NCBI GenBank assembly: GCA_947499725.1
Contig: CANMPK010000001.1
Location: 1,116,001 to 1,180,000 of the forward strand
Direction: 5' to 3'
Origin: an uncultured Paracoccaceae bacterium
GTDB lineage: Bacteria; Pseudomonadota; Alphaproteobacteria; Rhodobacterales; Rhodobacteraceae
Length of the DNA stretch: 64,000 bases
Both the position numbers and the translations under genes were made by a program. Position 1 is the first letter of the stretch. Every line of letters begins with the position of its first letter. Positions 39,924-42,806 of the stretch are shown one piece after another. The notes under the pieces are model-generated. The model saw nothing but the letters and a program-made list of their open reading frames with translations, had not been told where the DNA came from and ran no database searches.

Positions 39924-40793
39924 ATGATGACGAACCCTACGATCTCGCTAGAATTCTTCCCACCTAAAAACCTTGAAGGTGCCTTCCGCCTTTGGGACAC
40001 GGTGCAAGTGCTGGCCCCGCTTAAGCCACGCTTTGTCTCTGTCACCTATGGTGCCGGCGGCACAACGCGCGAATTGACCCGCGATGCCGTTGCTGCGCTG
40101 CATAAAATCACCGGTATGAACGTGGCCGCGCACCTGACCTGCGTGGATGCCACCAAAGCCGAAACAATGGATATCGCTGAAAGCTTCTTTGAAGCGGGCG
40201 TTTCTGAAATCGTTGCGCTGCGTGGCGACCCACCAAAAGGCAGCGACAGCTTTGTGCCGCATGCCGAAGGTTTTGCAAGCAGTGTCGAGCTGATCGAAGC
40301 TTTGGCGGAAAAAGACAAGTTTCAAATCCGCGTTGGCGCCTACCCTGAAAAGCATCCAGAGGCTGCGGATCAACAGGCTGATATCAACTGGCTGAAAGCC
40401 AAAGTAGATGCGGGCGCGCACGAAGCGCTGACCCAGTTCTTCTTTGAACCAGAAGCGTTCCTACGGTTCCGCGATAACTGCGTCAAAGCAGGTATCAATG
40501 CGCCAATCACGCCTGGCATTTTGCCGATCGAAAACTGGAAAGGCGCGCGCAACTTTGCCAAACGTTGTGGCACGCAAATTCCGGCATGGCTGGATGAGGC
40601 CTTTGAAAAAGCAGGCGCAGAAGGTCGCCAAGATGCTTTGGCTGTAGAGCTCAGCACGAAGCTTTGCCAAGACCTGATGAAAGAAGGTGTAAACGATCTG
40701 CACTTCTACACGCTCAACCGCCCAGAACTGACGCGAGATGTATGTGCTGCGCTTGGTATTACGGCTGAAACACAGATCAGCAATGCGGCGTAA
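39924..40793 (+). CDS. metF: Methylenetetrahydrofolate reductase
   Basis: A 289-aa flavoprotein that reduces 5,10-methylene-THF to 5-methyl-THF for methionine synthesis. Characteristic motifs: ISLEFFPPKNLEGA at the N-terminus, VSVTYGAGGTTRE, HLTCVDATK, ALRGDPP and TQFFFEPEAFLRF. It starts with two ATG codons in a row (39924 or 39927). It is divergent from metR and ends with a terminator. Confidence 0.97.
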   Translation: MMTNPTISLEFFPPKNLEGAFRLWDTVQVLAPLKPRFVSVTYGAGGTTRELTRDAVAALHKITGMNVAAHLTCVDATKAETMDIAESFFEAGVSEIVALRGDPPKGSDSFVPHAEGFASSVELIEALAEKDKFQIRVGAYPEKHPEAADQQADINWLKAKVDAGAHEALTQFFFEPEAFLRFRDNCVKAGINAPITPGILPIENWKGARNFAKRCGTQIPAWLDEAFEKAGAEGRQDALAVELSTKLCQDLMKEGVNDLHFYTLNRPELTRDVCAALGITAETQISNAA

Positions 40794-40848: not shown

Positions 40849-41910
40849 TCAAGCGCGCTTCTGGAAAAACTTAAATCGCGCTGGTGCTTTGTTTTCGACG
40901 CTGTCGTGAATATATTCTGATGGATCCTCGCCAATGCGACGTTTCGCACGTAGCAAAAAGATCTTTGCCCATCCGCGCCAATGCCCAACCGATGGTGCCG
41001 CGGCATCCTGTGGGAATCGCGACCGCCAATCACTCGGCAGAGGCATCCCGCAGTCTTCCGCCTTCTCCATCATCCACACCAATGGGATATTCGACAAGGG
41101 GCGCGCTGGTTCATAACCATCAAGGTGGCCACCGACATCGGTATGTGTGCCCTTAAACCAAGCCTGTTCAACATGGCCTGTCCAACCATTATCGCTGTCC
41201 CATAAGACGGGGGTATAAGCCAAACGGGTTTCATCCATCGCCAAGGCTTGGAAGCCATTTTTCACGGATTTACCCAGCGTATGATTGTGAAACTTGTGGT
41301 TTTCTTCGGACCAACGCCACAAAACCGGCAATCGCACTCCCAGTGCTTTAACCGTATCCCAAACTCCAATCATTTCGATTTCCACGTTGTCATGGCAGAA
41401 CGCTTGCCCGAAATCCTGCGCCGCGGCGCTGCCTGGGGCGATTTGGTAGTGGCGATAGGCCATCTGCACATTGCGTTCCGTGGCTTGGTTGGCTTGCAAC
41501 AAACCAATTCGATCAATCACACCTGCAAGCGAGCGCACGGCATAGGCCCCGCGCGAGTATCCCAACAGGAAAATCTTGTCACCCGGACGATAGCGTGAGG
41601 CCAAAAACCCATAGGCGCGGCGGATCTGGCGGTTGATCCCACGCCCCATCATCACGTCCGGAGCGTTCTTCCAATGGGTGAGCTGCACACCAGCTTCGTA
41701 GTACAAAGACACAGCTGGCGAAATCTCATCAATCAGGCGATAGGCCCGCCCCGCATTGGTTTCCATGCCCTGCGCAAGCGAAGACATGGTGCCATCCATG
41801 ATAACCACATGAATCTGAGGCTCGCGTCGGCGACGCAAAGCAGGTTCCGGCTCCGACATTTTGCGACGGAACAAGGTCTGCAACATCAATGATAAGCGGG
41901 ACCACTTCAT
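40849..41910 (-). CDS. DUF2235 domain hydrolase (Tle1-like phospholipase fold)
   Basis: A 353-aa alpha/beta hydrolase-like protein of the DUF2235 family, which includes type VI secretion phospholipase effectors of the Tle1 group. The nucleophile elbow is LLGYSRGAYAVRSLAG; an early IHVVIMDGT and a late WFKGTHTDVGGH supply other conserved positions. I chose the ATG at 41910 (MKWSRLS), after GAGGCAAAG; the frame is open further upstream into the small-RNA array, where the translated sequence is an artefact. No type VI gene is in the window, so a non-secreted role is equally likely. Confidence 0.85.
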   Translation of the reverse strand: MKWSRLSLMLQTLFRRKMSEPEPALRRRREPQIHVVIMDGTMSSLAQGMETNAGRAYRLIDEISPAVSLYYEAGVQLTHWKNAPDVMMGRGINRQIRRAYGFLASRYRPGDKIFLLGYSRGAYAVRSLAGVIDRIGLLQANQATERNVQMAYRHYQIAPGSAAAQDFGQAFCHDNVEIEMIGVWDTVKALGVRLPVLWRWSEENHKFHNHTLGKSVKNGFQALAMDETRLAYTPVLWDSDNGWTGHVEQAWFKGTHTDVGGHLDGYEPARPLSNIPLVWMMEKAEDCGMPLPSDWRSRFPQDAAAPSVGHWRGWAKIFLLRAKRRIGEDPSEYIHDSVENKAPARFKFFQKRA

Positions 41911-42088
41911 CTTTGCCTCATGTTTGCGGGCACTATTGCCCATTCTTCTTTTAACCCAGATCCGAACGCGTATCAGCCAACGAATATGCAACTTGGCGTT
42001 AGGAATTGTTTCAAGTCTTGGGAAGGTTCTAAAGCAAAACTGCGGCAGTTCCATGCCGTAAATCTGCAGTTTGATGGGCTTTAGACAT

Positions 42089-42166
42089 AAAAAAACGGTG
42101 GCGCCAGGGAGGAGGAAGGGCGCCACCGTTCTTTTCAGCATCCGGCCAGGGAGGAGGAGAGGCCTT
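42089..42166 (-). ncRNA. CcsR-type (cuckoo) small RNA 3, ending in a terminator
   Basis: Two hairpins each display CCUCCUCCC in the loop. The first (42144-42164) has a short GGCC stem. The second (42095-42129) has a perfect 11-bp stem, ACGGTGGCGCC with its complement, and is followed on the minus strand by a T-run, so it also ends the transcript. Third and last unit behind the DUF1127 gene. Confidence 0.8.
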
Positions 42167-42199
42167 CTGCATATCTGGATCATTCGATCCGTTGTTCAG

Positions 42200-42277
42200 G
42201 GCCGGCGATGCAGGGAGGAGGAGAGCATCGCCGGTCTTGCATCAGACGCCCCAAGGGAGGAGGAGGTAGCGCCTGAA
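42200..42277 (-). ncRNA. CcsR-type (cuckoo) small RNA 2
   Basis: Two hairpins with CCUCCUCCC loops: 42243-42275 (7-bp stem CAGGCGC/GCGTCTG with one G-U pair) and 42202-42234 (perfect 10-bp stem CCGGCGATGC with its complement). Loop sequences match the other units, while the stems are unrelated, which points to selection on the loops. Confidence 0.8.
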
Positions 42278-42299
42278 ATGTCTGGGCGTTTAGCCCGAA

Positions 42300-42376
42300 T
42301 AACTGCGGTGACATCAGGGAGGAGGAAGATGTCACCGCTATTCTCGAAAGACCAGGGAGGAGGAGAGGTCTTCCGA
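42300..42376 (-). ncRNA. CcsR-type (cuckoo) small RNA 1
   Basis: Nearest to the DUF1127 gene, starting within about 10 bases of its stop. Two hairpins with CCUCCUCCC loops: 42345-42375 (AAGACC/GGTCTT core, extended past a mismatch) and 42305-42338 (perfect 11-bp stem GCGGTGACATC with its complement). Known homologues in Rhodobacter sphaeroides are processed from a DUF1127 co-transcript and are stress-induced. Confidence 0.8.
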
Positions 42377-42383
42377 AACTGAA

Positions 42384-42584
42384 TTACTTGCCGTACACCG
42401 TTTCGATGGCGAGGCCTTTGATACCAGAGCGGGACAGGCCCAGATCAGCCAACTCACGGTTGGTCAGATCGCTCAGCTCAGATACTGTTTTGCGAAACTC
42501 TTTATACAGAGCGTATTTCGCTTTCAGGTCCGCAAAGAAGGAAACCTTTGGTGCGGAAACTGTGTACTGTGCTGCGTATGCCAT
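42384..42584 (-). CDS. DUF1127 small protein (CcaF1-like)
   Basis: A 66-aa protein with a C-terminal DUF1127 domain: FRKTVSELSDLTNRELADLGLSRSGI (about 29-54), an arginine-containing helix typical of the family. In Rhodobacter sphaeroides the equivalent gene (ccaF1, RSP_6037) lies directly before the CcsR RNAs, is co-transcribed with them from RpoH-type promoters and encodes an RNA-binding protein. Here too the CcsR hairpins start about 10 bases past the stop. A CCTATATC near 42615-42622 could be part of an RpoH-like -10 region; I see no convincing -35 box. Confidence 0.92.
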   Translation of the reverse strand: MAYAAQYTVSAPKVSFFADLKAKYALYKEFRKTVSELSDLTNRELADLGLSRSGIKGLAIETVYGK

Positions 42585-42806
42585 TTGTCTTCACTCTCGT
42601 CTTGTTGTGATAAAGATATAGGGAATTGCTGCATCCGCACAATCGCCACCTTTGCAATGCCGCTATGCAGAAAATGAATAGCAAAGACTGACCCAAAAAT
42701 TAACTTATTATCAACAACTTAGCCTTTTACGTTATCAAAATTGCCTAAATTTTGTTGCTTCTGGCGCTTTCTATGTCTTAGTGGCGCAACGTATTTGGAG
42801 GGCAAA

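Follow-up and report, generated by a model that had tools for sequence, protein, structure and literature searches.

The 64-kb stretch of DNA analysed here (the window) carries on its minus strand a tandem array of six hairpins that is very probably a CcsR/cuckoo (CIN1) locus of the genus Cognatishimia, and in this RNA part of our explanation we have high confidence. A known RNA family is extended by it to another genus. The arrangement of a DUF1127 gene with CcsR-like RNAs is named a CIN1 locus in passages of PMC10253847, and two traits of cuckoo/CIN1 loci are present: all six hairpin loops carry CCUCCUCCC on variable stems, and a short DUF1127 gene (PF06568) lies beside the RNAs. As to the host, a tree built from 81 Mrp proteins places the locus among Cognatishimia species, and the neighbouring Mrp is closest to that genus.

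Within the window, the motif CCTCCTCCC occurs six times, always on the minus strand inside the array and nowhere else on either strand. Dinucleotide shuffles of the window hold 0.44 such motifs on average and never six or more (0/100), and six of the 11 copies in the whole genome are those of the array. In transcript order, the motifs are spaced by 38, 62, 42, 64 and 42, an alternation that groups them into three units of two hairpins each. This had been proposed in a first-pass annotation made from the letters alone, and the six motifs lie where it had placed them, each inside a hairpin loop. The 295-nt array region folds at -129.2 kcal/mol (z = -8.0), a value equalled by none of 200 shuffles. 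Seven T residues directly follow the sixth hairpin, which can therefore act as a terminator, in line with the double role already ascribed to it.

Table 1. Features of the array locus in transcript order (window positions).
Feature	Position	Strand	Basis
Upstream TGC dyad CTGCATAGCGGCATTG, PhaR-like operator 1 (predicted)	42655..42670	-	letters checked; matrix score
Second TGC dyad TTGTGCGGATGCAGCA, PhaR-like but with 4-nt centre; opens with -35-like TTG	42627..42642	-	letters checked
-10-like CTATAT, 18 nt after TTG	42616..42621	-	sequence
DUF1127 protein, 66 aa, CcaF1-like	42384..42584	-	PF06568, 39.8 bits vs cut-off 23.3
Unit 1 hairpin 1, CCUCCUCCC loop	42342..42378	-	12-bp stem; both-side changes in 7/10 counted pairs, nine genomes
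Unit 1 hairpin 2, CCUCCUCCC loop	42305..42338	-	11-bp stem; both-side changes in 5/11 pairs, every cell paired
Inter-unit hairpin GGGC-loop-GCCC, motif-free	42284..42296	-	minimum-energy fold; absent from covariation count
Unit 2 hairpin 1, CCUCCUCCC loop	42242..42276	-	9-bp uninterrupted stem; absent from covariation count
Unit 2 hairpin 2, CCUCCUCCC loop	42202..42234	-	10-bp stem; both-side changes in 5/10 pairs, every cell paired
Inter-unit hairpin GGATC-loop-GATCC, motif-free	42177..42190	-	both-side changes in 2/5 pairs; 93.3% of cells paired
Unit 3 hairpin 1, CCUCCUCCC loop	42138..42170	-	4-bp core + 3 outer pairs; absent from covariation count
Unit 3 hairpin 2, CCUCCUCCC loop, intrinsic terminator with T7 tail	42089..42135	-	17 bp incl. 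A/U flank; both-side changes in 4/14 pairs, 96% of cells paired

Stem lengths follow the earlier description in part. A short first stem had been given as the rule for every unit; with uninterrupted first stems of 12, 9 and 4 bp in units 1 to 3, it holds clearly for unit 3 only. Second stems of 10-11 bp are found in units 1 and 2 (11 and 10 bp, respectively), whereas that of unit 3 comes to 17 bp, a figure that includes its A/U ends. Between the units lie two hairpins free of the motif (42284-42296 and 42177-42190). The first of these folds in some other members of the genus and not in all, and the second covaries; both could mark processing sites. The array is followed downstream by a gene (40852-42075, minus strand) for a protein with a Tle1-like phospholipase domain (PF09994, 212 bits), of a family that takes its name from type VI secretion effectors.

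Aligned to the Rfam model CcsR1 (RF02791), the three units scored 50.9, 45.0 and 36.1 bits (E = 2.5e-11, 1.4e-9 and 6.1e-7), each over the full length of the model (positions 1-83 of 83). Together with the DUF1127 gene in front, these alignments support the proposed match in layout to the Rhodobacter sphaeroides CcsR RNAs with CcaF1. All three units remain below the gathering score of 65.3 bits and therefore fall short of formal Rfam membership; at default threshold, Rfam gave no match at the array and two tRNAs elsewhere as its only hits. The cuckoo-model search that the first-pass annotation had suggested as a check thus succeeded in alignment length and E value, but not by the formal cut-off. 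The ar14 model (RF02344) matched the array twice (49.2 and 48.7 bits), likewise below its gathering score (58.8). For Rhizobiales RNAs of the same kind, passages of PMC3927594 describe a covariance model as inadequate because the stem sequences are highly diverged.

Matches of this sub-threshold kind are widespread in the family: 243 of 295 family genomes contained a CcsR1 match at E <= 0.001 and 10 of 295 one above the gathering score, compared with a single one of 14 control genomes at E <= 0.001. The number per genome ranged from 1 to 11 among the family genomes listed. In a second sample, CcsR1 was matched in 9/9 genomes of the genus, 10/15 others of the family and 2/16 others of the class. 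Comparison of copy number, also suggested beforehand, returned exactly three matches in each of the nine Cognatishimia genomes searched, our own included. Weak CcsR1 matches elsewhere in this genome (E 0.03 to 6) are to be read against the 12 of 14 control genomes matched at the same threshold.

Folding of the nine aligned Cognatishimia arrays with RNAalifold yielded 71 pairs, 31 of which show changes on both sides. Covariation was counted over 50 pairs in a structure drawn from the consensus of this same nine-array alignment, comprising the four motif hairpins that align well and the second inter-unit hairpin. Three hairpins that align poorly stayed out of this count: hairpin 1 of unit 2, hairpin 1 of unit 3 and the GGGC-loop-GCCC inter-unit hairpin. 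Stem and loop lengths differ between relatives in the first of these, and the GGCC/GGCC core of the second is the same in seven of the nine genus members and re-registered in two. Across the nine genomes, whose cells are not independent events because the genomes are related and two of them (G295 and G301) are near-copies at the array, 98.0% of cells pair, against a shuffled mean of 89.0. Both-side changes affect 23 of the 50 pairs (shuffled mean 11.5), and the covariation score is 0.394 (shuffled 0.206); for each of the three measures, none of 500 shuffles was equal. The count of further pair types in the 50-pair structure was ordinary, with 155/500 shuffles as high, and sliding the partners by 1 to 3 columns lowered pairing to 31-54%. 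The array thus offers clean covariation evidence, with loops kept and stems drifting.

It had been stated beforehand that related genomes whose stems and loops decay to the same extent would speak against the RNA. Run on the genus, this comparison gave a different picture: the loops, near-identical within the array as the first-pass annotation had stated, are also nearly fixed across the nine genomes, and the stems covary. Mechanical ORFs do overlap the array on both strands, but compensatory changes, fixed loops and the threefold match in every genus member make it scarcely credible that the array lacks an RNA function and is instead a repeat in decay or a piece of a long ORF.

The stems of different units had been called unrelated to one another. 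This stands for the first-position stems of our own genome, which are inconspicuous (at least 13% of shuffles as good), but not for the second-position stems: those of units 1 and 3 are alike to a degree reached by 0.2% of 500 shuffles, with 4% for units 1 and 2 and 11% for units 2 and 3. Averaged over the nine genus members, the first-position stems of units 1 and 3 rise above shuffles as well, those of units 1 and 2 hardly and those of units 2 and 3 not. The resemblance of second-position stems across units suggests that a two-hairpin unit was duplicated and then drifted under the constraint of pairing.

The DUF1127 gene noted ahead of the array is real by its Pfam match, and its ORF ends 20 nt ahead of the first motif. 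Using an iterated profile, we searched for such genes in 81 mrp-anchored loci (our own and 80 named ones), with the label of an array given to at least two motif-like sites; the outcome supersedes an earlier count of 62/72, in view of diverged genes in L110, L114, L123 and L136. Of the 80 named loci, 72 have an array no more than 3 kb from mrp, which makes 73 of 81 with our own. In 67 of these 73, own included, the DUF1127 gene is directly ahead of the array, and in the other six it is not. Three of the six, all from Sulfitobacter (L098, L099 and L155), have the reversed gene order, with a short CcsR-like array of two or three motif-like sites first and the DUF1127 gene after it. In the remaining three (L088, Cognatishimia; L111, Yoonia litorea; L131, Pseudoruegeria), which occupy three separate places in the Mrp tree, the gene is found neither ahead nor behind, L131 comprising only 1181 bases beyond mrp, such that a DUF1127 gene farther behind its array is possible. 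Both promoter dyads (Table 1) are present in all six loci.

Within the genus, the Cognatishimia genomes G295 and G301 (L056 and L057; L088 and G301 are the same record) have no DUF1127 gene at the locus and retain the promoter dyads together with all three units. Elsewhere in their genomes there are six and five DUF1127 matches, respectively, and CcaF1 activity could therefore act in trans. Eight of the 81 loci lack an array by pattern, seven of them clustered in a single branch of the tree, rooted at its midpoint (7/8 rows there), and the eighth being L162. This label depends on the pattern, as the pattern-negative loci L147, L148 and L162 show hairpins whose loops are shortened and CTCCTCCC- or CCCTCCC-like, followed in L147 and L148 by a DUF1127-like ORF.

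Since the DUF1127 gene is not ahead of six arrays in 73, the array RNA is no mere appendix of the DUF1127 mRNA. Strong 3' hairpins protect mRNAs, and with the gene directly ahead of 67 arrays one could read the array as a 3'-UTR device that protects or times the DUF1127 mRNA in cis and has no trans targets. We hold a cis-only element to be quite improbable because arrays occur without a protein gene in front: the gene comes after the array in the three Sulfitobacter loci, is on neither side in L088, L111 and L131 (the last within its 1181 bases), and is missing from the locus in two Cognatishimia genomes that keep every unit. Moreover, such a device would have no need of a fixed CCUCCUCCC loop. 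We have not seen the separability of protein gene and array in the literature examined; loci without a DUF1127 gene in front represent natural experiments on what CcaF1 contributes.

Loop motifs of the CCUCCUCCC type are read as anti-Shine-Dalgarno sequences in passages of PMC3927594. Among 43 window ORFs (called mechanically, >=180 aa, ATG start), eight can pair with the loop over at least 5 nt in the 20 nt before the ATG, compared with 1.0% of 860 control pieces from inside the same ORFs; pairing of at least 6 nt was found for 2/43 and 0/860, respectively. Candidate ribosome sites pairable with the loops are thus present, and their proposed masking fits the published reading of the motif.

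For transcription, processing and targets at the array we infer the following course, part of it by analogy with R. sphaeroides. One stress-type promoter would drive the DUF1127 gene and the three two-hairpin units, with transcription ending at the sixth-hairpin terminator. In R. sphaeroides, CcsR1-4 are cotranscribed with ccaF1 (passages of PMC10253847), undergo RNase E processing and depend on Hfq (passages of PMC7866481 and PMC8625941); their decay by PNPase is known (PMC7866481, PMC8307010, in part), and flhR mRNA is reported as a target (PMC8307010, in part). By analogy, RNase E would cut between the units to give RNAs of ~80 nt, and CcaF1 may influence their maturation. The single-stranded CCUCCUCCC loops would pair with Shine-Dalgarno sequences of targets and lower their translation or stability, while the stems would merely present the loops and so may drift as long as pairing stays.

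Rather than pairing with mRNA, the loops might act as a sponge for a C-rich-binding protein, be it CcaF1, Hfq or a different one. A transcript with many identical loops would suit titration, and according to passages of PMC10253847 and PMC7866481, CcaF1 is an RNA binder and CcsR RNAs depend on Hfq. We regard this as unlikely, given that CcsR1-4 have the reported flhR target (PMC8307010, in part) and that arrays persist without a DUF1127 gene in front, although the two Cognatishimia genomes checked retain other DUF1127 genes. Masking of ribosome sites by the loops is the reading we prefer.

The promoter region contains two TGC dyads followed by a -10-like element (Table 1). By eye we derived a pattern for each dyad, CTGCATRGCRGCAWTG and TTGTGCNNNYGCAGCA, and sought these between mrp and the array with up to 3 and 2 mismatches, respectively. 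Both were found in 67/81 loci, 28 nt apart in 56, 29 nt in 10 and 20 nt in one, and the reversed patterns used as control in none of the 81. A second set of 57 loci (L016-L072), which had no control and in which eight loci are repeat views of genomes already included, comprised 49 with both dyads, six with an array and without both dyads, and two with no array by pattern. In the upstream dyad, CTGCN3GCAG is exact in seven of nine genus promoters (7/8 in the second set), and our own upstream dyad differs by one change (GCGG). As a widespread element, the upstream dyad was discarded: its exact pattern with one mismatch allowed had two genome matches only. The looser TGCTGCNNNGCAGCA, again with one mismatch, occurs at 36 places in the genome versus 6 for its reversed control, and the second-dyad pattern with one mismatch at 27 versus 6.

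With respect to the core promoter, TTG-N18-CTA is present in 31 of the 68 loci that have TTGTGC (68 of 81). The column profile after the dyad reads about CMTAYAT over 67 loci, and CCCATGTT takes the -10 place in many loci of the second set. This CCCATGTT resembles the -10 of RpoH. An RpoH-type sigma factor would turn this promoter on; R. sphaeroides CcsR1-4 are listed among the sRNAs under RpoE, RpoHI and RpoHII in passages of PMC8307010.

The dyads themselves resemble sites of PhaR, a repressor that senses polyhydroxybutyrate (PHB) and in R. sphaeroides binds CTGCNNNGCAG; in the phaP1 and phaP2 promoters of S. meliloti, two palindromes flank the -35 element (passages of PMC12542648). We scored the window with a matrix derived from 16 S. 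meliloti sites, all in promoters listed as binding PhaR efficiently (PMC12542648, Table 3, in part). The 21-mer 42655-42675 ranks second among all positions. The top score (40088-40108, 18.7 bits) falls inside a methylenetetrahydrofolate reductase gene; this match is probably due to chance, and the matrix therefore makes false calls. In 57 of the 80 loci, the best matrix site lies within 300 nt 5' of mrp, where ~3.5 would be expected by length with intergenic base composition ignored, and in 66/80 this interval holds one of the three best sites.

The genome encodes PhaR (TIGR01848, 156.1 bits vs 109.45) and a class I synthase. Between phaR and the synthase lies a phasin-like gene (24.2, just below the Pfam cut-off of 24.9), whose promoter (L205, 2609-2740) contains CTGCN3GCAG twice in exact form, at a distance of 29 nt. 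The array promoter has a similar pair, its two TGC cores starting 30 nt apart, but the second dyad has a 4-nt centre versus the 3 nt of the listed S. meliloti sites.

From these matches, control of the array promoter by PhaR appears to us evenly balanced between right and wrong. PhaR would repress through two operators around the -35 until storage granules titrate it away; in our proposal, the array would answer to both PhaR and stress sigma factors. For Rhodobacteraceae at large, the scheme may be put as follows: PHB granules would release or capture PhaR, which would act atop RpoH on a phasin-type double operator at the ccaF1-ccsR promoter, such that the carbon store sets the level of an RNA that masks translation broadly, with the array essential and the DUF1127 gene replaceable. 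To this wider scheme we assign the same chance of holding as of failing.

Possibly, though on the doubtful side, the dyads serve another regulator or sigma-factor recognition in place of PhaR. The -35-like TTG falls within the second dyad, whose centre measures 4 nt in the 67 loci counted (the pattern fixed this length, and loci with other centres would have escaped it), and of the 14 sampled genomes without dyads at the locus, 12 encode PhaR. The upstream dyad, however, lies outside the core promoter and is scored by the S. meliloti matrix, and the published R. sphaeroides PhaR site is exact in the seven genus members mentioned. Presence of the regulator in 22/22 sampled genomes with dyads (chosen from 66 other dyad loci), as compared with 12/14 without (all such loci), or 34/36 overall, means that co-occurrence does not discriminate.

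Open-licence papers yielded no link of PhaR with CcaF1 or the CcsR RNAs, and where PhaR and DUF1127 appear in one open-licence publication, the passages concerned do not connect them. Publications in which PhaR occurs once together with the word CcsR deal, judging by their titles, with different topics. The promoter dyads were likewise not seen in the literature examined, and their PhaR reading stands as a hypothesis. If true, PhaR control would join two known systems, the stress-induced CcsR RNAs and a storage regulator. It could then also help account for the effects of CcsR RNAs on C1 metabolism and pyruvate dehydrogenase in R. sphaeroides (passages of PMC8625941).

Among known systems, CcsR1-4/ccaF1 of R. 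sphaeroides (RF02791) is alike in its two-hairpin units, its CCUCCUCCC loops and its tandem arrangement behind a DUF1127 gene; it has four units where the present array has three, and the array, hosted by Cognatishimia, scores below the gathering score of that family. The Rhizobiales cuckoo RNAs SmelA075, SmelA099 and ar14 (RF02344) share the loop motif and the variable stems (passages of PMC3927594). SmelA075 and SmelA099, however, have three and four hairpins per RNA, whereas here hairpin pairs are parted by a motif-free hairpin, and the array stays under the ar14 gathering score. At the level of the promoter, mmgR, a S. meliloti sRNA repressed by PhaR/AniA, is comparable through its PhaR site CAATTGTGCACCGCAGCATTA, which strongly resembles the second dyad (passages of PMC12542648). 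It is a different sRNA, with one listed site of 3-nt centre as against two dyads here, and PhaR control, experimental for mmgR in those passages, is predicted for the array.
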